Source: a virus. From it: a DNA stretch of 29,911 nucleotides. Shown here piece by piece: positions 1,856 through 28,108 of this stretch. The stretch covers positions 1 through 29,911 of IMG/VR virus record IMGVR_UViG_3300034198_007619. One strand, given 5' to 3'. Within the stretch, counting starts at the first letter, position 1, and the number at the start of each line of letters is the position of its first letter. The notes beneath the pieces are model-generated. The model did not search any database. It saw only the letters and a program-made list of their open reading frames with translations, and was not told the DNA's origin. The translations under genes were made by a program, and so were the position numbers.

Positions 1856-1887
1856 ACTCCTTTAACAATTTTAAATTTATAAATCTA

Positions 1888-3747
1888 CTACCCGAAGGTA
1901 GCTGCCGTAGATGTTCTTCTATCTAATGCCTGTTGTGAACTAACTTCTCCACTCACTACATACGCACGTATAGGTCTATTTGTAGTTTGTGATAGGGTTG
2001 ATGCGATTTGTGCACCTGGTGTAGCTGCTTGAGTTCCACTAATTTGTGGTGCTGCAGTTGCTCCAATTGTTGGTGTAGGTATAGATATACCAACTCCTCC
2101 TCCTGATGAAGGTGCTCCTGCTCCTCCTCCGCCTGGTATACCTGATTGGTTAATTGCTGATATACCTTTTACAGCTCCTGCCACAATACCAGCTGCAGAT
2201 AATGCACCTGTTATTTTAATTTGTGCTAGAGTTCTAGCTAAGTTTGCCGTAGCTGGGATTGCCGTTAATGGGTTTGCTATAAATGGTGCTGCTGCTGCGG
2301 TTGCTGAACTAATACCTCTAAAGGTATCAATCAGAACTTTACCTAATGCTGCACCTTGCTCAAGTATAACCCCACCGATTGCGAGAGCTTTATTCTTGCC
2401 CGCTATCTGCGTTAATAGAGAACCAAAGCCTGATACTAAATCTAATTGTGATTTTTGTATATCTGCTTTAGCATCTAATTCAGCCTGGTCAATTGCCATT
2501 CTTTCTCTTGCAGCTGCTCTACTAATTGCAGTTCTTTCATTATCAGTAAGTTCTGCATTCGTAAGTAACTCAGCTTCTTTTTGAGATATTAAGGCCTTTC
2601 TTTGTTCGAATGATAAGAAATCAAACTCTAACTGAGTTTCTATTCCTAATATATTATCTTCTCTCTTTTTATCAGCTGCTGCTTTAGCATCTTCTACAGC
2701 CTTTTTATCCTCTTCATCTTTCTTCTTCTTAGCCTCTTCAACCTTCTTAGCTTCTTCATCATCATACTTCTTATTGATAGCTAATACTTCTAATCTACCT
2801 TGCTCTAATACTGAAGTTTTATCTTTAATACCAGCTTTCTCTAATGCTAACAATCTTTCGTTTTGAGCAACTCCAGCTTTGTATATCTCTTGGTCTCTTT
2901 GAGTTAGAGTTGCAAGGTATGCTTCAGTCAATACCTTATTAGCATCTGCTAATTTCTTAGCATCTTCCTCAGCTTTCTTCTTAGCCGCTTCTTCTCTTTT
3001 TAATTTAGCTTCAGCTGCTTTTTTAGCATTTTCTTCTCTCTTCTTATTTTGTTCTTCAGTTTTCTTTGTTAACTCTTCCTGTCTTTTCTTTTCAGCTTCG
3101 TTAACATCTTGCTGAACCTTATCTACTGATAGGGTAGCTTCTTTGATTTTTGATGAAGATATACCTAATGCTTGTGCAGCTTTACTAAATCCACCTGCAA
3201 CAAATTCTAATACCTGAGCAAGTTTTTCGAATATAGGAACTGCAACCTTTTCTAATGTTGCTAATATCGGTCCTAATATACCTGAGAATGCTTGAGATAT
3301 TCTATTTAATACAGCTTGTCCTTCCGCAGTTGATTCTAATGATCTCTTAAGTGCAAGGAATATACCTACTAAAGCACCAATTACTGCAACAACCGGATTG
3401 GCTGCCAATAATTTAAATGCTCCATCTACACCTTTAATAGCGTTACCAGCCTGTCCTGCAGGTCCTGGTAAGGATGCTAATTGGTCATCAAATTGTTTTG
3501 ATTTTAATTGAACGGCTTCTAAACCATCTTCCAATTCATCTAACTGAGCCTTTAACTTATTGAAAGTTACACTATCACCTGCTGCCGCAGCCGCTTGTAA
3601 ATCCTTCTGAGTTTGACGGATTTGAAGTTGGAGTTTGGTAAACTTATCACCAGTCTCTTCGGCTTTATCACCTAAATCTTCTACTGCTTTACCACCGGTA
3701 ACTTCAGCTTCAACTTCTACAGTGTATTTACTAGTATTATCGGCCAT
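1888..3747 (-). CDS. Tail tape measure protein
   Basis: This 619-residue protein sets tail length and is carried inside the tail tube. It shows the usual layout: an N-terminal coiled coil (about 20-90), a hydrophobic stretch (about 112-134, LLAANPVVAVIGALVGIF), a long Lys/Glu/Ala-rich helical region (about 210-380), a second hydrophobic Ala/Gly-rich part (about 430-540) and a C-terminal Gly/Pro/Thr-rich tail. The end PIRAYVVSGEVSSQQALDRR is a pattern I recognise in tape measures of Bacteroidota phages. At this length a short to medium tail is expected. The ATG overlaps the stop of a 44-residue gene as TAATG. The gene follows adhesins and glycosyltransferases instead of the chaperone, which lies about 20 kb upstream in transcription order. 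Confidence 0.9.
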   Translation of the reverse strand: MADNTSKYTVEVEAEVTGGKAVEDLGDKAEETGDKFTKLQLQIRQTQKDLQAAAAAGDSVTFNKLKAQLDELEDGLEAVQLKSKQFDDQLASLPGPAGQAGNAIKGVDGAFKLLAANPVVAVIGALVGIFLALKRSLESTAEGQAVLNRISQAFSGILGPILATLEKVAVPIFEKLAQVLEFVAGGFSKAAQALGISSSKIKEATLSVDKVQQDVNEAEKKRQEELTKKTEEQNKKREENAKKAAEAKLKREEAAKKKAEEDAKKLADANKVLTEAYLATLTQRDQEIYKAGVAQNERLLALEKAGIKDKTSVLEQGRLEVLAINKKYDDEEAKKVEEAKKKKDEEDKKAVEDAKAAADKKREDNILGIETQLEFDFLSFEQRKALISQKEAELLTNAELTDNERTAISRAAARERMAIDQAELDAKADIQKSQLDLVSGFGSLLTQIAGKNKALAIGGVILEQGAALGKVLIDTFRGISSATAAAAPFIANPLTAIPATANLARTLAQIKITGALSAAGIVAGAVKGISAINQSGIPGGGGAGAPSSGGGVGISIPTPTIGATAAPQISGTQAATPGAQIASTLSQTTNRPIRAYVVSGEVSSQQALDRRTSTAATFG

Positions 3748-3881: not shown

Positions 3882-3918
3882 ATCTCTATAACAAACTGAA
3901 ATTACAAAATAAGTAACA

Positions 3919-5495: not shown

Positions 5496-6938
5496 TTATA
5501 CACAACCAGTATCACAATCAGAATACATTGATAGTGTTATTGTATTTCCTATATCACCACTTGTCACTTCATAAGTAGTTGTAAATAGACTTGTGCTTCC
5601 TGTTCCACAACTTGCATCATTAATAATTCCTATACAATATGCGTTTGCAGCTGAATTAGGTGATGAACAGCCACTAGTCACAATTTCACAATTTATTGTA
5701 TCACCTACACTAACATTATAAGTTCCATTAGATGTGTTAAATCTGTTTTCAACAACGTTACCATTGATGTATAGAACCATTTCTCCAGTACCAAGTCCTT
5801 CAATAAAGTTCCAATTGAACAATGCTGTAGTTGGAGGAGTAGTTGTAGTTGATGTTGTAGAAGTTGTTGTCGTGCAAGCAGTTCCCCAAACTACGTTATT
5901 CCAATTTGCTAAATCTGCTAAAGGAACAGCCGCTCTGATTGTATTAAATTGAATACATTGTGTGATTGTATAAGTTCCTAATGAAGATAAGAATGTATCT
6001 ACTATATCTCCATAGCAATTTGTCCATCTAATCCAACCCGTATCAGTTACGTTTATTGTAGTATTAACTACACAAGTCGGAGGTATAGTAGTTGTTGATG
6101 TTGTAGAAGTAGATGTAGTTGTAGTACAAGGAGTTCCATAAGAAGTAATTGTAAATGTAGTCTCACCATCTCCAACAATAGTTCCAGGCTGAATACAACC
6201 AGGTAAAGTGTGTTCACCTACAGGATAAGCTCCACCATCAGAAATACCATAACAAGTCAACCAATTAAGTGCATCACCATTAGTTACCTGAACTACCATT
6301 CCTGTATAGCAAGGTGCTAATGTTGTAGTTGTAGTGGTTGTGGTTGGTAATGTAGTTGTGCTCGTAGTAGAAGTGCTTGTAGTTGTAGTACAAGGTGTTC
6401 CAAACGATGTTATTGTAAATGTGGTTTCTCCATCACCTACAATACTATTAGGTTGAATACAGCCAGGTAAAGTATGCTCTCCAACAGGGTATGCACCGCC
6501 ATCAGATACACCATAACAATTTAACCAGTTAAGTGCATCACCATTAGTTACCTGAACTACCATATTTTGGTAGCAAGGTGCTAAAGTAGTTGATGTAGTT
6601 GTTGTTGGCAACGTTGTAGTTGATGTAGTTGTTGTAGGTCTTGTTGTAGTAGAAGTAGTAGATGTTGTGCTAGTACTTGTGCTTGTAGTAGTTGTAGTTC
6701 CAATTACCTCAACAACAAAGTTATTATCACAAGCTCCATTCTGATTTACCAATCTTAAGCACAATGCAGTATCAGGAAACGTTATAGTTGCCTGAGAACC
6801 GATAGCTGGTAAGTTTATAAGACTTGTTCCAGTTGTGTTTATATAAGTTACACAATCATCGGAATACTGAGCTCTATAGCTTGGTCCGGCTGAATTACCT
6901 TTTTGTGTTAGGGTTACTACCCTTTGTATTAATGCCAT
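5496..6938 (-). CDS. Adhesin-like protein with mucin-type Thr/Ser linkers and Cys-rich repeat modules
   Basis: The 480-residue protein starts with an 80-residue domain (VVTLTQKGNSAGPSYRAQY...). Four Thr/Ser linkers follow (81-121, 184-209, 272-287, 356-371). Between them are three modules with four or more Cys: C122-C183, C210-C271 and a diverged one, C289-C355. The first two are almost identical (VVQVTNGDALNWL-x-CYG, YPVGEHTLPGCIQP, GDGETTFTITS) and reflect a DNA duplication. The last 110 residues form a separate Cys-containing beta-rich domain. Extended mucin-like linkers and small disulphide-capable modules suggest a surface-exposed tail or head decoration that binds the host. A candidate phage promoter (6953-6990) stands directly before it. 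Receptor and exact virion position are unknown. Confidence 0.7.
   Translation of the reverse strand: MALIQRVVTLTQKGNSAGPSYRAQYSDDCVTYINTTGTSLINLPAIGSQATITFPDTALCLRLVNQNGACDNNFVVEVIGTTTTTSTSTSTTSTTSTTTRPTTTTSTTTLPTTTTSTTLAPCYQNMVVQVTNGDALNWLNCYGVSDGGAYPVGEHTLPGCIQPNSIVGDGETTFTITSFGTPCTTTTSTSTTSTTTLPTTTTTTTTLAPCYTGMVVQVTNGDALNWLTCYGISDGGAYPVGEHTLPGCIQPGTIVGDGETTFTITSYGTPCTTTTSTSTTSTTTIPPTCVVNTTINVTDTGWIRWTNCYGDIVDTFLSSLGTYTITQCIQFNTIRAAVPLADLANWNNVVWGTACTTTTSTTSTTTTPPTTALFNWNFIEGLGTGEMVLYINGNVVENRFNTSNGTYNVSVGDTINCEIVTSGCSSPNSAANAYCIGIINDASCGTGSTSLFTTTYEVTSGDIGNTITLSMYSDCDTGCV
6126..6575 (-). repeat. Tandem 264-bp unit: duplicated Cys module plus Thr linker
   Basis: Module one (6390-6575) and module two (6126-6311) are 62-residue copies starting 88 residues (264 bases) apart, separated by a Thr/Ser linker. 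They differ at only a few residues (QN/TG, N/T, V/I, NS/GT, F/Y). At the DNA level long stretches such as the GCATCACCATTAGTTACC block agree in both copies. A third, much diverged module (5874-6074) has the same Cys spacing pattern. The low-complexity linker DNA on both sides offers ready material for unequal recombination. Confidence 0.85.
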
Positions 6939-6952
6939 ATTATATCTTTATT

Positions 6953-6990
6953 TATAGTCTATTAACAAATTTATATCTCATCGTAGTTTA
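6953..6990 (-). promoter_or_regulatory. Candidate phage late promoter, site 5
   Basis: Minus-strand sequence TAAACTA-N11-AAAT-TTGTTA-ATAGACTATA precedes the 480-residue adhesin, its end 14 bases before ATG. It matches TAACTA-N15-TTGTTA at 11 of 12 fixed bases with exact spacing, and TAAATTTG inside it fits the Bacteroidota -7 box TAnnTTTG. It overlaps the stop codon of the preceding gene. Confidence 0.6.
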
Positions 6991-10037: not shown

Positions 10038-12146
10038 TTAACATGCTGATATTGGTGATGATGGGAATAATGTTGCATTTGTCACACCACTAACGCAATC
10101 TATAATTTGAGTTTCTTCTTCACAACTTCCTTGTCCACAATCTACATAAGCAGTTCTTGCATACTCAATAAAAGCAGTTGATGCTCCGTAAGGAATAGTT
10201 ATTATTCTACCAACCAATGATGGAGAACCTAAACAAGGAGTAACTGTATATCTTACAGCCACACTAATAGTGCTACCATAGTTAATTGTTGGGTTTCCAT
10301 TTTGGTCTAACACATTAGCAATAGTTCTATAAATAACATCGCTAGGAGGAGAACCAAATGGACAATTTGAAGGTCTAGTATCCCATTCTTGGTCATCAAC
10401 CAATATCTGATAACCTAATGTTAAATCCTGCGAACCAGATACACCCGTTCCTGCTAAATAAATTAAAGGTGATGAAGCAAATGTAGTTTCAACCTCAAAC
10501 TTACCTTGTGAGAAGAAGTTTTGTGTATCGATATAATACTCTTTTCCGTATTCTCTATTTGCAGCTTTACTAAATTGTTGTGATACATAATCATTATCTA
10601 ACCTATCACCGAAGTTTAACTCATTAACAGCTAAGTTGTTAGCTGGAATTACTTCTATCTTTTCATCTAAATTAATGTATCTATTAAAGTCCTTTATCTG
10701 ACCTGTTTTATACCAACTGTTAAATGTCTCAACCACAAACTCATTTCTTCTGGTTTTAGATGGATACATTACAAGGTTAAACTTCTTTTGAATGCCTCTA
10801 ATAAAATCTATCTTTTTAATACCTGTAGTTCCAAATGGCATGTTCTTACCAATGTTCATTAACCATCCTTCACCAACATTACCAGCTTTAGTAATAGAAA
10901 GAGATGATTTTAATTCACCATCCGGGTCTAACATTACACTAAAGTTATTGTTGTATTCGTAATTGTATTCTATAGCAAATCTATAGGCGCCAACTGGTAA
11001 GTAAGCAGTATTAAATTCAGTTGATAGTGTATATTTGGTAGTTTCAGTATTAAGATTTTGTGATACCATTCCACCATATATCTGCTCAAAGTATCTATTG
11101 AAGTTTACCAATGTAGTTATTGATACTGAAGTTCCTGATGAATTCTTTACATGCAATTCAAATGATGGAACACCTCTACCTGCGGTTAACTGAGTTACTT
11201 TGAAGTTAAGCGTTAATTCACCTCTTAATTTAGTTGGATACTCTACATTATAGCTACTATCAGTATTAAATGCTTCATTTGGGTTTGTAAGGATATTATA
11301 ATATGGTAATAATAACGGAGTTCCAGTTACTAATAAGTTATTAGTAGATCCACTAGCTGGCGCTATCTTACCTATTCCGTATGTTTCTAAATTCTCTTCT
11401 GCAAATTCAGGATACTTTAATGAGTTATTGCACAACATATATACGTTATCCAAAAATGGTTCATTAAAGAATGAGCCTGAGTATGTGTATCCGTATTCTT
11501 TAAAAATTGCATCCCATACTTCTTTTACTCTAATAGATGGTTTGAAATCTTGCACAAACATAGAACCTTCACCACTATCAATACCGAAGAACTGCTCTTC
11601 AGGTGAATAAGTTAGCTTTTGTCCATATTCTGCAAGAGGATATACGATAACTCCATTATGAAGATTACCTTCCCAACTACCTGTTATGTTTTCAAAAGAA
11701 GCAATGTGATTGAATTGTGCTAATGAGCTTGTCATATCAGTTAAGTAACTTCTATTAATCTCTCTAGCAAAAGAACTTAATGAACCATAGATGCTTATCT
11801 CATACGAATCAATAAACTTATTAGCAAGAACGTTTACCTTATTTAATTGTAGGTAACCTTGTGCCAAATAGATTCCATCAAAATCTAAGTAAGCTGGAAC
11901 TTTAATGTTAGTTGCAAACGTATCAGGGTTGTATATGGATATATCATAAACGTGTTCAAAGAAAGCGTTATTCTTTTTAGTACCTGGCAAGCTGATTTGT
12001 CTAGTGAAATCAGCCGGCAAGATACCTAAATCAAAAAGCCCTGTTACGTTGTCTGATAGAGTTATATCTTCATCTCTAAAAAGATCTAAGATTTCACCAT
12101 CAGCTACTAATTTAAAACTAAACCCTTGCGTGCTTGTTACTCCCAT
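10038..12146 (-). CDS. Tail tip / baseplate hub-like structural protein
   Basis: The 702-residue protein begins with FSFKLVADGEILDLFRDEDI and continues VTGLFDLGILPADFTRQI-LPGTKKNNAFFEHVYDI (34-70). I recognise this combination from large tail proteins of Bacteroidota phages, placed where tail-tip or hub proteins are coded. DFDGIYLAQGYLQLNKV (88-104) and KVFVSYEISIYG-like strands suggest a hub-type beta domain, and KEVWDAIFKEYGY (207-219) a helical element. The last 100 residues are a Cys-containing module ending in CGQGSCEEETQIIDC. No enzyme motif for cell-wall digestion is visible. Its ATG overlaps the stop of the preceding gene as TAATG, and the adhesin follows 11 bases later, fitting a tip-assembly gene set. 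Confidence 0.75.
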   Translation of the reverse strand: MGVTSTQGFSFKLVADGEILDLFRDEDITLSDNVTGLFDLGILPADFTRQISLPGTKKNNAFFEHVYDISIYNPDTFATNIKVPAYLDFDGIYLAQGYLQLNKVNVLANKFIDSYEISIYGSLSSFAREINRSYLTDMTSSLAQFNHIASFENITGSWEGNLHNGVIVYPLAEYGQKLTYSPEEQFFGIDSGEGSMFVQDFKPSIRVKEVWDAIFKEYGYTYSGSFFNEPFLDNVYMLCNNSLKYPEFAEENLETYGIGKIAPASGSTNNLLVTGTPLLLPYYNILTNPNEAFNTDSSYNVEYPTKLRGELTLNFKVTQLTAGRGVPSFELHVKNSSGTSVSITTLVNFNRYFEQIYGGMVSQNLNTETTKYTLSTEFNTAYLPVGAYRFAIEYNYEYNNNFSVMLDPDGELKSSLSITKAGNVGEGWLMNIGKNMPFGTTGIKKIDFIRGIQKKFNLVMYPSKTRRNEFVVETFNSWYKTGQIKDFNRYINLDEKIEVIPANNLAVNELNFGDRLDNDYVSQQFSKAANREYGKEYYIDTQNFFSQGKFEVETTFASSPLIYLAGTGVSGSQDLTLGYQILVDDQEWDTRPSNCPFGSPPSDVIYRTIANVLDQNGNPTINYGSTISVAVRYTVTPCLGSPSLVGRIITIPYGASTAFIEYARTAYVDCGQGSCEEETQIIDCVSGVTNATLFPSSPISAC

Positions 12147-13381
12147 TAGATTATAAGTTTATATTGCTGACCCCAATCGAAATCAAATGCGTATTGAATT
12201 AATTTATCGTTTACACCAGTCTTAAATACTATAGAATCAGTCTTAATAGTGATAGGTCTTAATTGAGCATCTTGTCCTCCACCATATCCATCACCATAGC
12301 CACCATCCCAAGGTGAACCTGGTGCTCCTTCTACATATATCCAATATATTTCATCTGAAACTAACAATTGCTTAAATATATCATTGTAGTCCTGGTCAAC
12401 ATAATCAGAATTTACTGAAAGTGTTTGTGATGAATCTGAAATATAGTTTAAGGTAGAGCTATCATAGTTTTGGTAACTCAATGATGTTCCTTGCCAACTA
12501 CCTAATTGTGGTTGGTATGTTCTTTTAGTTGCTTGGAATCCTTGTCTATTTACTAAATAAAAATTGAACCAATCAAACTGTCCGTATCTATTCTTCCATT
12601 TAATTCTAATGTTTGGATATTTTTGCTTACAAACATTTTGGAAATATAATGGTCTACCTAAAGGAACAGTATCAATAACCGCTTGTATTTGGAAATCTAA
12701 ATCTTTATAAGCCGGCGCAATTGGCCAACCTGGTTGAATAGGTCCAATAGGTATTTGTTGTATTTGATTAGTTGTTGATAGAGATGATGATAAGTTGTAT
12801 TCAGCTTGTTCTGCAACTTGTCCATTAGCACTTAGTGCTCTATATATAATTTTATTAGGTTGGCTACCACCTGTAGTTCCAACATACACACCCATTGTTC
12901 CAATGTTCTCAGTCAATACTGATTGCGTAGCCGGTCCATCGGTCATTAAAGGCCAGAATGGAGTTTTACTTTGTATTGCCTGTCCGATTGGTTCTTGGAA
13001 TATAGAATATCCATCTACAACCTTATAAGTTGATGATTTTACATGCGAACCTGTAACATAAGCTGAACCATTCCAATACTGCCAGTAGAAATCGGCAGCG
13101 TAGTATTTTACGTTGGATGTGTTAGCTTGTGCTAAATCAGTTAGGGTAGAGTTTAGTATACGTGAAAAATCAAATATACCTCTACCTGATGTGTTGGGAT
13201 ATTTGACAAGTGTATAATCTACTGAACCAGATTGAGTAGGTGTTCCATCCCAATAATACAAATCTGCATAGTATTGGAAGGATGATGAAATTAAAACACC
13301 TCCCGTTTCATTTACCGTAAACACAATAGGGGATTGCGCCGGTGAAACGTTAGCTGGTGTTTGCGTTATTGAAAGTGCCAT
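12146..13381 (-). CDS. Distal tail-like structural protein
   Basis: The 411-residue, beta-rich, aromatic-rich protein (SSFQYYADLYYWDG near 33-46, KYYAADFYWQYWNG near 91-104) is of a type I know from Bacteroidota phages between the neck genes and the tail hub. Position suggests a distal tail (Dit-like) or tail-tip component, but Dit membership cannot be shown by eye. A Gly-rich loop, DGGYGDGYGGGQD, lies near residue 365. It ends with FDFDWGQQYKLII. Its stop overlaps the next start as TAATG. A degenerate version of the late-promoter motif (TCAATA-N15-TGGTTA) is present upstream at about 13393-13429, but I do not count it. Confidence 0.7.
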   Translation of the reverse strand: MALSITQTPANVSPAQSPIVFTVNETGGVLISSSFQYYADLYYWDGTPTQSGSVDYTLVKYPNTSGRGIFDFSRILNSTLTDLAQANTSNVKYYAADFYWQYWNGSAYVTGSHVKSSTYKVVDGYSIFQEPIGQAIQSKTPFWPLMTDGPATQSVLTENIGTMGVYVGTTGGSQPNKIIYRALSANGQVAEQAEYNLSSSLSTTNQIQQIPIGPIQPGWPIAPAYKDLDFQIQAVIDTVPLGRPLYFQNVCKQKYPNIRIKWKNRYGQFDWFNFYLVNRQGFQATKRTYQPQLGSWQGTSLSYQNYDSSTLNYISDSSQTLSVNSDYVDQDYNDIFKQLLVSDEIYWIYVEGAPGSPWDGGYGDGYGGGQDAQLRPITIKTDSIVFKTGVNDKLIQYAFDFDWGQQYKLII

Positions 13382-13434
13382 ATTAGATTCTTTATAACCC
13401 TTTAACCATCCAAAAAGAAAAAGTATTGAATGGT

Positions 13435-14937: not shown

Positions 14938-16230
14938 TTATGATTTAAATGTTTCAAATTCTTGTGAAAACTTCGGTAAACTCATGTGAAAGAATTCCTT
15001 TTCTACTGCTTCCAATCTTGTATCTACAATACCCTCACCACTATCTTCAGTAGTATCAGGGTTTTCCAATTGCTTATTAGTATCATCAGATACTTCATCC
15101 ACAGTTTGACCTGTTTCTTCAGCCTGTTGAGATAATAGAGCCAATGGAGTTAATTGGTCAAAGTATAATTCAGAATCAGGGTATCCACCTTCAGTTAATG
15201 CTGATGCTAATGAACCAATGATTAGATTTTGGAATGGATTTATCGTCATAGATTGAAGAATAGAGAATGCTGTCATCATTTCCTCACTTTGAGAACTAAA
15301 TCCGTTATTTGCCGTTCTAATACCGAATAGAAGCGGCGATGTAACTCTATGAGCTACTAAGATTCTATCTTGTGCGTATTCTGAAACAAACTTATACTTC
15401 TCATGCAGATTATCCGTTTGAATTGTATCGATTGTTGGTTTGTTAGCAGGGTCATCATTAAACGATAACATAAAACGACCAGCGTTTCTTGTGCCTGTAA
15501 ACTTAGATTCGATAATATCTTCGATTGTTTGTCTTTCTTCAGGAGCTGGAACACCATTGTTCATATTCACCATCACTAATGGTAAGAAACCATTTTCAAT
15601 GTTGTTTAAGTGTAGGTTACTTATCTCAGCTTCTACATAAGAAAATTGTAATGCAGAAATCCAATCAGGTAAACTATAATAGTATTTGCCCGGTGTGTAA
15701 TTCTTTATGTAAAGTAACTCCATCTTTTTATTAGAAGTTCCAAATGCTGGAATCTCTTTCTTATTCTTTTGTGCTCTATGGTCAGTCCAATCAGTAGCGT
15801 AGTAGTATGTATCTACTCTTAAACTATCATACAACTTACCTGCTCTGATATTTTGAACAGGAACGTGATACATTTTTACAATTTTAGTATGGTCATCGTT
15901 CCAATATACTTGGAAAGCTGCGTTACCATACAACTTCAAATCGAATGCTACTCTTTTAGTCTCTTCTTGGGGTAATATCTTGTCAAGAATCGCTTGAAAC
16001 TGCGGGTTCTTACTATAGAGTCCTTTACCAAAGATCAAGTCTGAAATCCCTTCTATACATGCCGCATTTGTAGTGGATGTTGTGAAAGCATCAGTAATGT
16101 TTTGGAAGAAATCATCAGCAGATAAAATACCTACAGGCACCCATGCATAACGAGTTTTAGTATCTTCTATTATAATAGGGATGTTTTGTTGTGTTAGTTC
16201 AACTACACTAAAGTTTTGTGCTATTTTCAT
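14938..16230 (-). CDS. Portal protein
   Basis: The 430-residue protein forms the DNA channel at the capsid vertex. Recognisable parts are the N-terminal TTNAACIEGISDLIFGKGLY (53-72), a strand region YGNAAFQVYWNDD followed by MYHVPVQNIRAG (102-131), the crown helix region QTIEDIIESKFTGTRNAGRFML, and HRVTSPLLFGIRTANNGFSSQSEEM near 295-318, a hallmark of PBSX-type portals in Bacteroidota phages. The last 60 residues are acidic and probably flexible. It follows the 119-residue gene by one base and precedes the connector by 6. Being placed after capsid and tail tube is unusual, since portal normally follows terminase. Confidence 0.9.
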   Translation of the reverse strand: MKIAQNFSVVELTQQNIPIIIEDTKTRYAWVPVGILSADDFFQNITDAFTTSTTNAACIEGISDLIFGKGLYSKNPQFQAILDKILPQEETKRVAFDLKLYGNAAFQVYWNDDHTKIVKMYHVPVQNIRAGKLYDSLRVDTYYYATDWTDHRAQKNKKEIPAFGTSNKKMELLYIKNYTPGKYYYSLPDWISALQFSYVEAEISNLHLNNIENGFLPLVMVNMNNGVPAPEERQTIEDIIESKFTGTRNAGRFMLSFNDDPANKPTIDTIQTDNLHEKYKFVSEYAQDRILVAHRVTSPLLFGIRTANNGFSSQSEEMMTAFSILQSMTINPFQNLIIGSLASALTEGGYPDSELYFDQLTPLALLSQQAEETGQTVDEVSDDTNKQLENPDTTEDSGEGIVDTRLEAVEKEFFHMSLPKFSQEFETFKS

Positions 16231-16231
16231 A

Positions 16232-16591
16232 TTAATCTAAAATGATGTATTCGTTATCAGTTACATTGCTAATGTATTGTTCATCTGCAGGAATCTGATT
16301 TATATAATTTGGTTTATCTAATGATTGTGAAGTATATACTTGCAAGCTACCATGCCATATTGAGCCAGTGCCATCAGTTATATAAGCTCTATATTCGTCA
16401 CCAACCGAAGCTGATGCAATAGATGCAGTAAATTGTAGTAATCCTTCGTATGAATCAAACGTATAAGATAGCGATGATGAAGTGTTTACTAAAGTGTACA
16501 TGTTCTGCAAATGTAAAGTTAGGTTAGATGAGCCCGTATTTTCGGTTCTAAAACTAAACAAGTTGCTTCCTGATATGTAATATGCTAACAT
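16232..16591 (-). CDS. Small beta-rich virion-type protein, 119 aa
   Basis: The protein begins with alternating polar and hydrophobic strands (MLAYYISGSNLFSFRTENTG), continues in an Ig-like manner (YEGLLQFTASIASASVGDEYRAYITD), and ends with GSIWHGSLQVYTSQ followed by an exposed tail (NYINQIPADEQYISNVTDNEYIILD). The WHGSLQVY and EQYIS...NEYII parts are patterns I recall in small genes beside portal and capsid genes in related phages. Head decoration or neck functions are possible; no direct proof. It is the first gene after a terminator and a candidate promoter, so it heads the portal-tail transcription unit. Confidence 0.65.
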   Translation of the reverse strand: MLAYYISGSNLFSFRTENTGSSNLTLHLQNMYTLVNTSSSLSYTFDSYEGLLQFTASIASASVGDEYRAYITDGTGSIWHGSLQVYTSQSLDKPNYINQIPADEQYISNVTDNEYIILD

Positions 16592-16613: not shown

Positions 16614-16651
16614 ATCTAGTACATAACAAAGATATAAGAAGAAATAGTTAA
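16614..16651 (-). promoter_or_regulatory. Candidate phage late promoter, site 4
   Basis: Minus-strand sequence TTAACTA-N11-ATCT-TTGTTA-TGTACTAGAT lies 22 bases before the 119-residue gene and starts right after the terminator's T-run. Both boxes match TAACTA-N15-TTGTTA perfectly. TATCTTTG inside it is an exact Bacteroidota -7 box (TAnnTTTG). Confidence 0.65.
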
Positions 16652-18331: not shown

Positions 18332-18994
18332 TTATTTATATAGTTTTGATAAGAATGCAGTTTGTGAGTTACCTACCTTCTTTCCAAAGTTATTTTGTTT
18401 TGGTTTAGCCATACCCTCTTCTACAGGTGCTCCATCTAACTTAGGAAGTTCTTCTTCTTCCTCAACTTCGATTTCTACCTCAGCCATCTTTTCGAATTTC
18501 TTTTCCATTTCAGAGATTCTGTATGATAACTCATCCATCATCTTCTTCATTTCTACTTTGTCATCATCAGCTGGGATAGTTTCAGGAGTTTCATCTACTT
18601 CATCAGAAGATTCATCACCACCTATATCTTCACCTGCTATAGATTCCATTTCAGTTACTTCGTTTTCTTTTGGCTCCATTGTAGTGTTTGGTAGAGGCTC
18701 AACATCTACTGTCTCAGCTAATTCTACGTTCTCTCTCTCAGTAATTACACCATCTTTGGTCATTACTTTGATTCTTACTTCGTTACCTTCGGAATCTTTT
18801 AAGAATATCTCATGCTCACCATCTGGTGCTGGAGATTTAGTTCCATCTTCAGAAACTACATCCACTGCTTCACCTACATCGAAAGTATTTGATTCTAAAA
18901 TTGTTCCATCTGCTAATTTAGCGTATGTCATTGCAACTTCCTTATCAGATGATAACATTGCTACGATTTTGCTAAGTACTTGTTTTGCATTCAT
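18332..18994 (-). CDS. Scaffold-like acidic protein upstream of capsid
   Basis: The 220-residue protein begins MNAKQVLSKIVAMLSSDKEV, then a small beta domain (LADGTILESNTFDVGEAVDV, PAPDGEHEIFLKDSEGNEVRI), a long acidic low-complexity part, a coiled coil (KMMDELSYRISEMEKKFEKM) and a basic tail (NNFGKKVGNSQTAFLSKLYK). The layout matches the scaffold-like proteins before capsid genes in Bacteroidota phages: an acidic filler plus a basic C-terminus that touches capsid subunits. A longer frame begins at a TTG (19003), but the ATG at 18994 fits the family start MNAK better, so I use it. Whether the XkdF-like protease cleaves it is unknown. Confidence 0.8.
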   Translation of the reverse strand: MNAKQVLSKIVAMLSSDKEVAMTYAKLADGTILESNTFDVGEAVDVVSEDGTKSPAPDGEHEIFLKDSEGNEVRIKVMTKDGVITERENVELAETVDVEPLPNTTMEPKENEVTEMESIAGEDIGGDESSDEVDETPETIPADDDKVEMKKMMDELSYRISEMEKKFEKMAEVEIEVEEEEELPKLDGAPVEEGMAKPKQNNFGKKVGNSQTAFLSKLYK

Positions 18995-19010
18995 AGTTTT
19001 CAATTGTGTT

Positions 19011-19048
19011 TATAATGACTTAACAATCATTGGTTATAAAATAGTTAT
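19011..19048 (-). promoter_or_regulatory. Candidate phage late promoter, site 3
   Basis: Minus-strand sequence ATAACTA-N11-ATGATTGTTAAGTCATTATA ends 16 bases before the scaffold ATG. The 20-base downstream block equals that of site 2 except for one base, although the 11-base spacers differ, so this is not simply a copied segment. Both boxes match TAACTA-N15-TTGTTA perfectly. Confidence 0.7.
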
Positions 19049-23407: not shown

Positions 23408-23620
23408 TTATTGTTCTGATTGGGTTTGAGAATAAGGAACTTGTGTTTGTCCAATACCTTGCTCCATTAGAGCTCCATTACAACACTTACGGCTGTATGT
23501 ATTCGCATTTAAACACAAACAAGCTCTCCTACTATTCTTTGGAGAACTTTTACCCTGTGTCGGGCCTATATAGATTCCAGTTGTATTTTGGAATCTGGCT
23601 AAGTAAGCTGGTGTTGGCAT
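23408..23620 (-). CDS. Small Cys-cluster phage protein, 70 aa
   Basis: The first 30 residues look like a short virion peptide (MPTPAYLARFQNTTGIYIGP). Then comes RRACLCLNANTYSRKCCNGA with Cys34, Cys36, Cys46 and Cys47, and LMEQGIG. I recognise the CLC-x(n)-YS-x-KCC-x-G-x-L-x-x-QGIG pattern from small genes in Bacteroidota phages, often next to fibre genes. Four closely spaced Cys could bind a metal or form disulphides. It is the first gene behind candidate promoter site 2 and sits 13 bases before the fibre gene, so a role in fibre attachment or assembly is possible. Function unknown. Confidence 0.75.
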   Translation of the reverse strand: MPTPAYLARFQNTTGIYIGPTQGKSSPKNSRRACLCLNANTYSRKCCNGALMEQGIGQTQVPYSQTQSEQ

Positions 23621-23630
23621 ATCAATTCGT

Positions 23631-23668
23631 TATAACGACTTAACAATCATAAAAACAATTGTAGTTAT
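23631..23668 (-). promoter_or_regulatory. Candidate phage late promoter, site 2
   Basis: Minus-strand sequence ATAACTA-N11-ATGATTGTTAAGTCGTTATA ends 10 bases before the ATG of the Cys-cluster gene. Both boxes match TAACTA-N15-TTGTTA perfectly, and the downstream 20-base block matches site 3 at 19 of 20 positions. The upstream box begins at the last base of the chaperone extension's stop codon. Confidence 0.7.
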
Positions 23669-24751: not shown

Positions 24752-25912
24752 TTATCTAATTGAAATAACATACTTGCCCTTTGCAGTTGCTACGTTACTT
24801 AACTTCATCATAAAGACGTATCTTGTAGCATCTATTCCGTGGTTGTTGAAATCAACGGGCTTATCTAACTGAGTTCCAAATCTATCCGTATCCCACTCAT
24901 AACTATAGAACTCATTGGTTAGATTCTGGCATACTTTAGGTATGTTTATCTTATAGTTCTGCATAACCTGAATACCAAAGTTAATCGAATCCTTTCCTTT
25001 AACTACCGGCTTAACGTTATAACCCAATTTGTATAACTCATCATTGAGTCTTGGTTCAGAACTATCCGCCCATATTTCTTCTCTACCTTGCACTATTGGT
25101 TTCAGCTTAGCATCTAAATCAGATGTGGTTAATCCTTTCTCATAGAAGTGCTCTAATAGATATATCTCACCATCTTGCTTCCATACTGATACTAAACAGC
25201 TAGGGTCATTACTATATCCATAATCCAGTCCGTATGCAACAAACTCAGCAGTATCAGGTAACCATTCTACTGTGTTGAATTGGAAGATAGCCTTTTCATT
25301 CGTAGTATATTCACCAAGCCCGTATGTCTTCCAAGCTTTGGGGTTTGTTCTCTGCAATTCTTCGATTGCTTTCACAACGCTCTTCTCTAAATAGGGATTG
25401 TTCTTATATGTGGTGAAGTAACGAGTGCAATCTTCCATCTCTCTAAGCCAGTGCATCGGGCTCACGGTAGGGTTGTAGCTTAAGATGATTGGACCTGTAG
25501 TTCTGATTTGCAATTGAAAGTATGACTCAGAATCAATCTCCGAACTTTCTTCAAGCCACAAGATTGAGCTTTTCATACCTCTTAACTTATCAGGCGCATC
25601 GGTTGATACGAACTGAATAGATGAGCCTGTATAAAAGTTATACGTCCTCTCGGAAATGTTGAAATCATTGTCATTCCAAATTCCCATCGCTTGCATCAGA
25701 TCCTTAAAATCTTTGATCACAGTTCTTCGAAGCGATGGGATTGTCTTTCTTACTATCGTAACATCTTCATTACCTTCTAAGCATTTTACAATTATCCATT
25801 GTAGTATAGCGTATGTCTTTCCACTTCTAGTACCACCAATGTGATGAGTCACCCTCGTTGGAGAGTTCTCTTGGTTCATATAGGTAATAGTGCTATTGAT
25901 TTCCAGATTCAT
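24752..25912 (-). CDS. terL: Terminase large subunit
   Basis: The 386-residue protein is the packaging motor ATPase and nuclease. Walker A is GGTRSGKT (26-33). Walker B is ILWLEE (117-122), with Glu121 or Glu122 catalytic. The coupling motif SYNPT is at 145-149. The RNase H-like nuclease carries Asp230 (YGLDYGYSNDP), Asp283 (WADSSEP) and Asp361 (NHGIDATRY). This is the Terminase_3/PBSX-type organisation, and the length is close to the family's usual size. The start overlaps the small-terminase gene by 20 bases. An alternative ATG exists 11 codons in, but the first fits the overlap arrangement. Confidence 0.95.
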   Translation of the reverse strand: MNLEINSTITYMNQENSPTRVTHHIGGTRSGKTYAILQWIIVKCLEGNEDVTIVRKTIPSLRRTVIKDFKDLMQAMGIWNDNDFNISERTYNFYTGSSIQFVSTDAPDKLRGMKSSILWLEESSEIDSESYFQLQIRTTGPIILSYNPTVSPMHWLREMEDCTRYFTTYKNNPYLEKSVVKAIEELQRTNPKAWKTYGLGEYTTNEKAIFQFNTVEWLPDTAEFVAYGLDYGYSNDPSCLVSVWKQDGEIYLLEHFYEKGLTTSDLDAKLKPIVQGREEIWADSSEPRLNDELYKLGYNVKPVVKGKDSINFGIQVMQNYKINIPKVCQNLTNEFYSYEWDTDRFGTQLDKPVDFNNHGIDATRYVFMMKLSNVATAKGKYVISIR

Positions 25913-26201
25913 TGCTGCCTGTTTGGTTTATATTAACTTGGATTGCTTGTATCCTTTGCTCAATCTCAGCTTTCATTTCAACTCTACTTTGTTTAGGTAG
26001 ACTGAATTCCAATAACTTAAGTGCTAAATCAATTGCAGCTTTAGGGTCTTTCTTTTTCATCTCCTGCAAATCCGTTGCCAATGTATCCAATATAGAGTTA
26101 GTAGCCCTTGTGATGGATATTCTCATTTGCTCGGTTGTGCGGTTTACGGAACCTGGCGGTCTACCTTTCGCTAGCTTATGCCCTTTTTCAAATTTGCCCA
26201 T
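25893..26201 (-). CDS. terS: Probable terminase small subunit
   Basis: The 102-residue protein starts MGKFEKGHKLAKGRPPGSVN, a DUF5681-like basic start seen in DNA-binding phage proteins, then a helical core (TRATNSILDTLATDLQEMKK, PKAAIDLALKLLEFSLPKQSR) and a polar tail. Together with its position, overlapping the large terminase by 20 bases, this makes a small subunit that recognises the packaging site likely. A candidate promoter (26225-26262) stands 23 bases before it, so it heads the late region. Sequence alone does not prove packaging-site recognition. Confidence 0.75.
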   Translation of the reverse strand: MGKFEKGHKLAKGRPPGSVNRTTEQMRISITRATNSILDTLATDLQEMKKKDPKAAIDLALKLLEFSLPKQSRVEMKAEIEQRIQAIQVNINQTGSNESGNQ

Positions 26202-26224: not shown

Positions 26225-26262
26225 TTCCAAGTTATAACACATCATATCACCTTTGTAGTTAA
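26225..26262 (-). promoter_or_regulatory. Candidate phage late promoter, site 1
   Basis: Minus-strand sequence TTAACTA-N11-TGAT-GTGTTA-TAACTTGGAA lies 23 bases before terS. It matches TAACTA-N15-TTGTTA at 11 of 12 fixed bases with exact spacing. The 93-base stretch between the 27-residue membrane peptide and terS holds this site and no convincing gene. Confidence 0.55.
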
Positions 26263-26294: not shown

Positions 26295-26378
26295 TCATGC
26301 ACATGCAATATAAGCCAATATCCCTAATAGTAGTATGTAACCTATCAATAGCTTTTCTACTGTCCAATCTCTTTTCAT
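26295..26378 (-). CDS. Tiny single-pass membrane peptide, 27 aa
   Basis: A 27-codon frame starts MKRDWTVEKLL and is followed by a continuous hydrophobic stretch (IGYILLLGILAYIACA). The basic start and hydrophobic rest fit one membrane segment with the N-terminus inside. The ATG overlaps the methyltransferase stop as ATGA, a typical coupled junction in this genome. It is short, so chance is not excluded. A holin-like, superinfection-exclusion or host-membrane role would all be guesses. Confidence 0.4.
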   Translation of the reverse strand: MKRDWTVEKLLIGYILLLGILAYIACA

Positions 26379-26896
26379 ATCCTACCTATAATTGTTAATC
26401 CGTTGTTGTTGGTGAATCTTTCTACTAGCTTCCATTCCGCATTATCTCTTAGGAACTCTTCGATAGCAGGCCATATTCCTTTTTCCGATTTACCTTCGTA
26501 TGATTCTCCACCCCATTCAAACGATGTGGTATCATGGAATCCAATCCACTTTCTTACTTTACTATGGTGCCTTTCTAGCTCTCCCTTTAGTTGTGTGTAG
26601 TTGTGTAACGTATCTATAAAAAGAAAGTCTGTCTCTTCTATATCGATTTCTAATGTGTTACCTACTTTGAATTCGAAGTCCGTATCAGTTTGTATATGAG
26701 ATACATCTACGTTGATAATATCCCAGCTTATCATTCTCTTAGGCTTACCCATTAGTAATGCATAGGTAGATACTATTCCTCTTACTCCCATTTCAGTTAT
26801 ATGCTCACTTCCTTCTGCATATCTCTTAAGAGTTGGTAAGTGCTCATTTATATCTGAAGGTGTTTCACATAATCTTTTGTATATGGCTTCTATCAT
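26375..26896 (-). CDS. CmcI-like class I SAM-dependent methyltransferase
   Basis: The 173-residue protein follows a pattern common in aquatic phages: SDINEHLPTL (14-23), glycine-containing motif I ITEMGVRGIVSTYALL (33-48), ISWDI (56-60, the acidic strand end), FLFIDTLHNYTQLKGELERH (91-110) and WIGFHDTTSF (117-126). These belong to Methyltransf_24/cephalosporin hydroxylase-like enzymes, which often modify sugars and sit beside glycosyltransferases. Here the glycosyltransferases lie 21 kb away. Substrate unknown. It overlaps the sigma-like gene as ATGA, so both are probably expressed together before the late genes. Confidence 0.8.
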   Translation of the reverse strand: MIEAIYKRLCETPSDINEHLPTLKRYAEGSEHITEMGVRGIVSTYALLMGKPKRMISWDIINVDVSHIQTDTDFEFKVGNTLEIDIEETDFLFIDTLHNYTQLKGELERHHSKVRKWIGFHDTTSFEWGGESYEGKSEKGIWPAIEEFLRDNAEWKLVERFTNNNGLTIIGRI

Positions 26897-27432
26897 CGGA
26901 ATGGATTTGTTATCTTTTCTTTTAAATGCTTTCTTATCTTCTTTACATGCAGATAGGATGTTGATTTACTTACACCTATATCGTTTGATACTCCTTCTAA
27001 TGTCTTATCTGAATAAAAGTATAGTTCAGCTAGTCTTGCACTTGTCCACATTTTAGTCTTTTGCAAGTCCATTATTTCATTTTGAACATCACTATATGCT
27101 TTTTCCATCTTCTTATCCCAATCGTAATCGTATTCCGTATCTACATCATCCCAATCATCATCCAATCCTTCCAACCTTTTACTTGCTTTGATATGATTTA
27201 AGAAACGTGATTTGATGAAAGAGTAGCAATACATTAAGTTAAAGGATTTATCATACCAAAGAGATGGGTTTCCTTTTTCTGCTAAGTAGAGGAAAAGGTC
27301 ACCTATCAATTCTTTGGATAGCTCTCTATTCTTTGTGATATTATATCCAATGCTTAGTAACCAATCCATGTGTTCTCTACATAGAATATCTAAGCGTTTA
27401 TTATTCTCTATATGCGTTTCTTCTATACTCAT
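26893..27432 (-). CDS. Sigma-factor-like transcription regulator
   Basis: The 179-residue protein has the two-part layout of an ECF-type sigma factor. A helical region 2-like part (about 15-85, with MDWLLSIGYNITKNRELSKELIGDLF and YSFIKSRFLNHIK) is joined by a very acidic linker (DDDWDDVDTEYDYDWD, 91-106) to a C-terminal helix-turn-helix region 4-like part (about 128-172, with TLEGVSNDIGVSKSTSYLHV then KKIRKHL). Such proteins occur in Bacteroidota phages. It lies just before the methyltransferase and the first late promoter candidate. It is a good candidate to read TAACTA-N15-TTGTTA with host RNA polymerase, but no sequence feature proves this. An alternative is a terminase-like or general HTH regulator. 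Confidence 0.7.
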   Translation of the reverse strand: MSIEETHIENNKRLDILCREHMDWLLSIGYNITKNRELSKELIGDLFLYLAEKGNPSLWYDKSFNLMYCYSFIKSRFLNHIKASKRLEGLDDDWDDVDTEYDYDWDKKMEKAYSDVQNEIMDLQKTKMWTSARLAELYFYSDKTLEGVSNDIGVSKSTSYLHVKKIRKHLKEKITNPFR

Positions 27433-27433
27433 T

Positions 27434-27673
27434 CTATGCTTCTACTCTTTTGATATAATCTCTTACATCATCAGCGCATTTAGCCCACAATCCAACTGAT
27501 GATTTACATCCGCATGGTTGCGGTTCTTTTGTGTTTCCTCTTATTAGAGTGCATTTACTCCATAACCATCCCATCTTATCTTCAGGTAGGTATGAACCAA
27601 ATGTTGCCATCATTGCTTTGATTTCGTTGAACTCATTCTCATTAAAAGGAGCGTAACTTCTAGTTGTTTCCAT
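27434..27673 (-). CDS. Small conserved-type phage protein with Cys motif, 79 aa
   Basis: The 79-residue protein contains FNEIKAMMATFGSYLPEDKMGWLWSKCTLIRG and then EPQPCGCKSSVGLWAKCADDV (Cys54, Cys56 and Cys66, with Cys41 earlier). The sequence P-x-PC-x-C-x-SS-x-x-LW-x-x-C is a pattern I know from small proteins of Bacteroidota phages; in some it looks like a compact metal-binding element. Function unknown. It precedes the sigma-like gene by one base and overlaps its upstream neighbour by 14 bases, so it belongs to the early or middle operon. Confidence 0.65.
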   Translation of the reverse strand: METTRSYAPFNENEFNEIKAMMATFGSYLPEDKMGWLWSKCTLIRGNTKEPQPCGCKSSVGLWAKCADDVRDYIKRVEA

Positions 27674-27908
27674 ATTCGTTTAATTTTGTTATTGTTTCTG
27701 CATCCATATTGAATTTACCTTTCATGTGTGCTACAAATTCTTTTACTAATGCTTTTTTATTTAGATTCTGATAATATGCCATTCTTCCCTGATAGTTTAG
27801 TGTAGATATATCTACTACTTGCATCTTATCCATATCAGGTATAGGATTGTATCCTAATTCTTCCATCTCTTGACGGATTTGCTTCTTTAGTTCTTCTTGC
27901 TGATTCAT
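27660..27908 (-). CDS. Hypothetical helical protein, 82 aa
   Basis: I do not recognise this 82-residue protein. It begins with a charged helix (MNQQEELKKQIRQEMEELGYN), then a Pro-containing link and two further helices (QGRMAYYQNLNKKALVKEFV and KGKFNMDAETITKLNEY). It has no Cys and no membrane segment. It overlaps both neighbours (14 bases with the 79-residue gene and TAATG with the 66-residue gene), which supports a real gene within a tight operon. Confidence 0.6.
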   Translation of the reverse strand: MNQQEELKKQIRQEMEELGYNPIPDMDKMQVVDISTLNYQGRMAYYQNLNKKALVKEFVAHMKGKFNMDAETITKLNEYGNN

Positions 27909-28108
27909 TAGAATAATTTTATTTCGTTACATCTGCCATTGTAATCCTTGTCCGTTAATTTATTAAGCCACTCTTTCCTTTCGCAGCAGCCACACGATTC
28001 TTTTCCTAATACATCTATTGCTATCCACTCTGATAGCCTTTGTCCAAAGCCCAGTGTAATTACGTGAATAAGCGCTTCGGCGTAATCGCCTAATTTAATC
28101 CATTTCAT
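27908..28108 (-). CDS. Small Cys-cluster protein, 66 aa
   Basis: The 66-residue protein has an amphipathic start (LGDYAEALIHVITLGFGQRLSEWIA) and then ESCGCCERKEWLNKL with Cys39, Cys41 and Cys42, plus a late Cys59. The IH-x-x-TLG-x-G...CGC-x-x-R-x-x-WLN-x-L pattern is one I recall in short phage proteins from this host group, often coded among early genes. The Cys may bind a metal. Function unknown. It overlaps the HNH gene by 14 bases. Confidence 0.6.
   Translation of the reverse strand: MKWIKLGDYAEALIHVITLGFGQRLSEWIAIDVLGKESCGCCERKEWLNKLTDKDYNGRCNEIKLF

Follow-up and report, generated by a model that had tools for sequence, protein, structure and literature searches.

The question raised by this locus is whether the virus encodes a sigma factor of its own that redirects host RNA polymerase to its late genes, and through which promoters it would do so. 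The window, that is, the whole stretch of DNA that was analysed, is a 29.9-kb virus record from IMG/VR in which the minus strand carries nearly all genes. The reading favoured here, at a probability of roughly 0.86, is that one of these genes encodes a phage late-gene sigma that switches host polymerase to the late genes through promoters of the type TAACTA-N15-TTGTTA. The late switch would then be run by the virus itself, because a sigma of its own and a matching promoter-like signal before structural genes recur together across the group. The proposed factor is encoded here:

26893..27432, minus strand: gene for an ECF-type sigma factor of 179 aa; an acidic linker connects regions 2 and 4

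In the 179-aa protein, an acidic linker (DDDWDDVDTEYDYD) joins a sigma-2-like half at the N-terminus to a C-terminal HTH. TIGR02937 matched residues 16-174 of 179 (E 5.3e-8), and the Bacteroidota ECF model TIGR02985 matched with E 3.3e-7. Both matches fall short of the curated cut-offs; for TIGR02937 the score is 32.7 bits and the cut-off 42.9 bits. A homologue from one relative (L022) reached E 1.1e-9 and 38.1 bits against TIGR02937, likewise below 42.9 bits. PHROG 1740, annotated as "RNA polymerase sigma factor", matched at E 2.2e-5. Pfam returned no sigma domain and nothing above cut-off for this protein, and a sigma profile searched against PDB sequences gave one weak and irrelevant match only. 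An AF2 model built from 15 homologues (pLDDT 77.5) placed helices at residues 3-84 and 103-173 in addition to the linker; the placement of the two domains relative to each other is unreliable. The best PDB alignment of this model was to E. coli sigmaE region 4 on -35 DNA (2h27; Z 10.2, 69 aa, 2.2 A), with other ECF sigmas ranking behind it. ECF sigmas also formed the top rows of a Foldseek search, with E-values of 2e-3 or worse. Identity to solved structures was low, mostly 9-18%, and the closest viral model, A0A6J5SM22, is named Sigma70-ECF and is 39% identical. Homology thus spans sigma regions 2 and 4 at scores below the curated cut-off, in a two-domain ECF architecture that has a sigma4 fold and lacks regions 1.1 and 3. 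The original prediction had described an ECF-like two-part protein with an acidic linker, and the TIGR02937 match over residues 16-174 and the sigmaE region 4 superposition bear this out: on homology and predicted fold, the product of 26893-27432 is a phage-coded ECF-type sigma factor. Homologues were not found by tblastn in a collection of annotated phages, and a scan of GTDB species genomes likewise gave no relative.

The signal proposed to be read by this factor was counted in the window against shuffled DNA. TAACTA-N15-TTGTTA occurs in three exact copies (shuffled mean 0.01; 0 of 100 shuffles reached three) and, when at most one mismatch is allowed, in five copies (shuffled mean 0.61), all of them on the minus, coding strand and 17-33 nt ahead of ORFs. 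At three mismatches the signal is absent, with 87 matches in the window and 85 by chance. A matrix derived from the wider family (PWM scores below) picked up a further site, site 5, that the exact motif of the original prediction had missed. The sites, and the genes behind them that are referred to below, are as follows:

26235..26261, minus strand: site 1, TAACTA-N15-GTGTTA; 33 nt before the small terminase gene; PWM 17.1; kept between sigma and terS in relatives
25893..26201, minus strand: small terminase-like gene, the first gene past site 1; homologues in 19/19 long relatives
24752..25912, minus strand: large terminase subunit; Pfam Terminase_3, 8.7e-25
23641..23667, minus strand: site 2, exact; 20 nt before ORF 23408-23620; PWM 22.0
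19021..19047, minus strand: site 3, exact; 17 nt before ORF 18332-19003; PWM 16.9
16624..16650, minus strand: site 4, exact; 32 nt before ORF 16232-16591, with the portal gene behind; PWM 14.9
14938..16230, minus strand: portal protein, in the unit behind site 4; PHROG portal, 3.3e-61
13403..13429, minus strand: site 5, TCAATA-N15-TGGTTA; 21 nt before ORF 12146-13381; PWM 20.5
6963..6989, minus strand: site 6, one mismatch; 24 nt before ORF 5496-6938; PWM 12.0
3889..3915, minus strand: weak candidate, two mismatches; 141 nt before ORF 1888-3747 (tape measure-like); PWM 13.8
1863..1889, minus strand: weak candidate; 7 nt before ORF 794-1855 (head maturation protease-like); PWM 13.4

The genes downstream of the window sites include the terminases, the portal gene and other late genes; the name terS for 25893-26201 is a putative one, given from its position ahead of the large terminase. 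As had been proposed, the sigma gene is the second gene upstream of the first site, with a single gene (26375-26896) between them. The site itself exists, at 26235-26261 rather than at 26225-26262 as first placed.

Two IMG/VR scans and a terminase scan yielded 123 sigma-bearing sequences, of which 66 were non-redundant. The motif was expected in phages that encode a close homologue of the sigma, and it was present in nearly all of the 66 contigs. When 55 contigs were searched with the window consensus, a spacing of 15 gave 63 sense and 13 antisense matches, and other spacings gave mostly 2-13, with a maximum of 25. Unseeded EM on 259 non-redundant upstream regions returned tt.A.TA(Y)AAA-...-TTGTTAAAt with a 15-bp spacing in 37% of regions, and the two-box consensus of the 66 relatives reads YNANTA[C/T]AAA, 15 bp, then TTGTTAAAT, with the downstream TTGTTA(AAT) as its strongest element. 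This two-box motif and its 15-bp spacer co-occur with the sigma gene throughout the lineage; the promoters of ECF sigmas typically have two boxes separated by about 15-17 bp. At 14 bits or more the matrix matched 203 sense sites, 9 antisense sites and 5 sites in shuffled DNA. One argument of the original prediction, that TAACTA contains the AAC core of ECF upstream elements, fails because A..TA (A..TA[C/T]AAA) and TTGTTAAAT are conserved and AAC varies; TCACTA, TAAATA and TCAATA are common.

Site 1 stands ahead of the terminase genes, and the repeats could in principle serve packaging, replication or recombination rather than transcription. This is hardly credible given that copies are spread before many structural genes and that the motif keeps one orientation relative to genes. 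Of the copies, 73% lie at most 60 nt from an ORF start and 85% (96/113) have their TTGTTA in intergenic DNA, the latter bias being partly built in because the matrix was trained on upstream regions. A second matrix was therefore trained on 39 contigs, with most of the window's side of the sigma tree held out, and applied to seven long records of that side. There it found 41 sense sites (38 intergenic) and 4 antisense sites, in DNA of which 6.7% is intergenic.

At the junction between the sigma and terminase genes, the order sigma, small terminase, large terminase is kept in all 66 contigs bar one, in which the small gene was undetected. In 58 of 65 contigs the interval from sigma to the small terminase gene contains a motif copy of at least 10 bits, a score reached by 0.5% of shuffled upstream regions, and TAnTACAAAGGTGA...TGTTA is legible in most of the 65 terS upstream regions. 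The terS start falls within 120 nt of the sigma stop in 39 of the 65. The gene or genes separating sigma from site 1 vary among contigs, yet the site persists. In the window this intervening gene (26375-26896, minus strand) has a weak methyltransferase-like match and is present in 0 of 19 long relatives, unlike the sigma gene and the late module, which are core among them. Among the lowest-scoring contigs are those of the L094/L097 and L113/L096 clades, in whose genomes the downstream box occurs in variant forms.

In the relatives, no sense match was found in the 1 kb before sigma (56.7 kb of coverage) and one in the -3 to -2 kb bin (35.2 kb), compared with 0.60 and 0.75 sense matches per kb in the 0 and +3 kb bins. 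The exceptions are nine matches at -2 to -1 kb, several of them ahead of HNH endonuclease homologues. In L059, L082 and L150 a late-type motif precedes HNH endonuclease-like genes 1.1-1.8 kb upstream of sigma, as if HNH genes inserted in the early zone carried their own promoter. The original statement that the motif occurs solely downstream of the sigma gene accordingly stands for the window and not for the relatives, some of which have copies 1.1-1.8 kb upstream. Copies much farther upstream in linear contigs probably belong to late genes of circularly permuted genomes; end repeats of 99-127 nt were found in 5 of 20 long records.

Hosts possess many ECF sigmas, and the motif might be a promoter for a host sigma, primary or ECF, with the phage sigma serving other targets. 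The published Bacteroidota promoter has TTTG at -33 and TAnnTTTG at -7 (PMC7366714), and the window sites at 6963 and 16624 do contain TAnnTTTG, the -7 box (PMC7366714). The family consensus, however, shows no conserved TA at the position required ahead of TTG and no -33 TTTG, and so departs from the Bacteroidota primary-sigma form. The host-type motif is enriched in the early zone instead. In the 4.5 kb before sigma, TTTG-N17-21-TAnnTTTG occurred 21 times on the sense strand (4.3 in shuffled DNA), and it was less enriched in late DNA (12 versus 7.5); the early antisense strand showed some excess as well (20 versus 10.6), for which reason the early-zone enrichment is taken as supportive. None was found in the window's 2.5 kb of early region. 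Phages that lack the sigma also argue against a host factor, since Flavobacterium, Bacteroides and Phocaeicola phages of this kind show no enrichment of the motif. In 270 kb of phage sequence without the sigma, 2 sense and 3 antisense sites reached 14 bits, and in 207 kb of such controls the window consensus occurred once per strand. Bacteroidota-type phages without the protein are thus at background counts, and the motif was not seen in relatives lacking it, the finding that had been named as one that would speak against the pairing. Flavobacterium phage FpV9, Bacteroides phage BS162P3, Phocaeicola phage BM127P2 and IMG/VR relatives of FpV9 are among the controls. These controls are distant, the named phages having terminases of about 32-37% identity, and the early genes ahead of the terminase in two control phages are not sigma-like. 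Among terminase relatives of at least 67% identity, sigma was present in every contig extending far enough upstream, those without it beginning at most 1.2 kb before the terminase. No close relative lacking sigma was found among the terminase relatives, and the presence or absence of sigma is for that reason inseparable from ancestry. Taken with the form of the consensus, these counts make a host sigma an unlikely reader of the motif.

Two further small genes are conserved in the same early zone:

27434..27673, minus strand: 79-aa QPC-x-C protein, adjoining sigma upstream; core gene, 19/19 long relatives, near and upstream of sigma there too; no PHROG family
27908..28108, minus strand: 66-aa protein with the cysteine motif CGC[C/E].R[K/R]; early-zone core, 18/19 relatives; no known family

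Being conserved like sigma (19/19 and 18/19), either protein could be a regulator that recruits host holoenzyme to late genes, with the motif as its operator. Two boxes at a fixed 15-bp spacing and at this distance from gene starts have the form of a sigma promoter, and neither protein matches a known DNA-binding family; the 79-aa model is a three-helix one whose sole good matches are uncharacterised viral proteins. We consider an operator of this or another phage regulator very unlikely. The 79-aa protein is a possible partner of the sigma. By analogy with the small phiEco32 gp79, it might shut off host sigma or help the phage sigma to hold core polymerase, a tentative and rather doubtful extension to a two-gene late switch; if it were true, an uncultured phage lineage would run a complete sigma-exchange system of its own. 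No annotated anti-sigma gene was recognised next to the sigma gene; a neighbouring anti-sigma gene is common among ECF sigmas and not universal.

Under the favoured reading, a phage-coded late sigma, host holoenzyme would transcribe the early genes, with sigma among the last of them. The sigma would then bind host core RNA polymerase, with its region 4 recognising the upstream box, YNANTA[C/T]AAA or, in the window, TAACTA. Region 2 would read and melt the downstream box, TTGTTA(AAT), 15 bp from the upstream box. Transcription would start a few bases past the downstream box, some 10-30 nt before structural genes, and the first late start would lie directly behind the sigma gene and ahead of the terminase genes. 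We infer the binding of core polymerase and motif by this sigma, the assignment of the boxes and the late timing from these arrangements.

Divergent members of the sigma family are accompanied by altered boxes. In G018 (L181-L182) the downstream box is shifted to TTGTTATTAAT, with 9 sense and 0 antisense matches, and variant downstream boxes occur in G020 (L185-L186; TTGTTATCTAT) and in L113/L096 (TTGTTATAATA). Three divergent sigma clades carry box variants of their own, a pairing that is confounded with general divergence. Clade-specific EM on G021 and G019 gave start-codon signals that drowned any motif. Two records in the collection are unusual in other respects. The 62.6 kb record G013 (L043-L046) contains two different sigma genes and apparently two late gene sets, and is either two fused phage genomes or an assembly chimera; L180 (PP511318.1), Dulem virus 31, is a 35.8-kb tailed-phage genome whose record is labelled Microviridae.

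The promoter map predicts late units and start sites in a phage lineage whose sigma has no match in annotated phages. With it, the takeover by phage of the unusual transcription machinery of Bacteroidota becomes testable. Sigma specificity could be studied across the divergent factor-promoter pairs (TTGTTAAAT, TTGTTATTAAT, TTGTTATCTAT), which would form a natural series, and the pairs could be used as orthogonal expression parts. A literature search, with subscription journals mostly outside its reach, found no paper joining Bacteroidetes, phage, ECF sigma factor and late genes. Phage late sigmas are already known as a kind; what is new is this lineage-wide member. It resembles bacterial ECF sigmas (TIGR02937, E. 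coli sigmaE, the Bacteroidota factors of TIGR02985) in having regions 2 and 4 only, in fold and in its candidate two-box promoters, and differs from them in its low identity to solved structures and in having no recognised adjacent anti-sigma gene. T4 gp55 and SPO1 gp28/gp34, late and middle sigmas, belong to other protein families and use other promoter types; compared by description, they are set apart from the window sigma and would be alike in role. The essentiality of these factors has been noted (PMC9429907). The phiEco32 factor gp36, a sigma for middle and late genes, uses the single-element promoter tAATGTAtA and lacks region 4 homology (PMC8948821, PMC4331800); both are phage sigma factors, the one in the window having a clear region 4 and a two-box motif. 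Closest in anatomy is SaPh711_gp47 of Salmonella phage 7-11, which uses host core polymerase at eight bipartite late promoters, GTAAtg-16-aCTA, shown by in vitro transcription and primer extension (PMC8948821). In both cases a phage-coded sigma with region 4 goes with bipartite promoters ahead of late genes, in the window candidate ones that lie on the coding strand; the spacers are similar (16 there; 15 here, in TAACTA-15-TTGTTA), and eight promoters there compare with six good candidates in the window. The phage group, the host phylum and the boxes differ, and the likeness, drawn side by side by description and for the present lineage from sequence, is one of anatomy.
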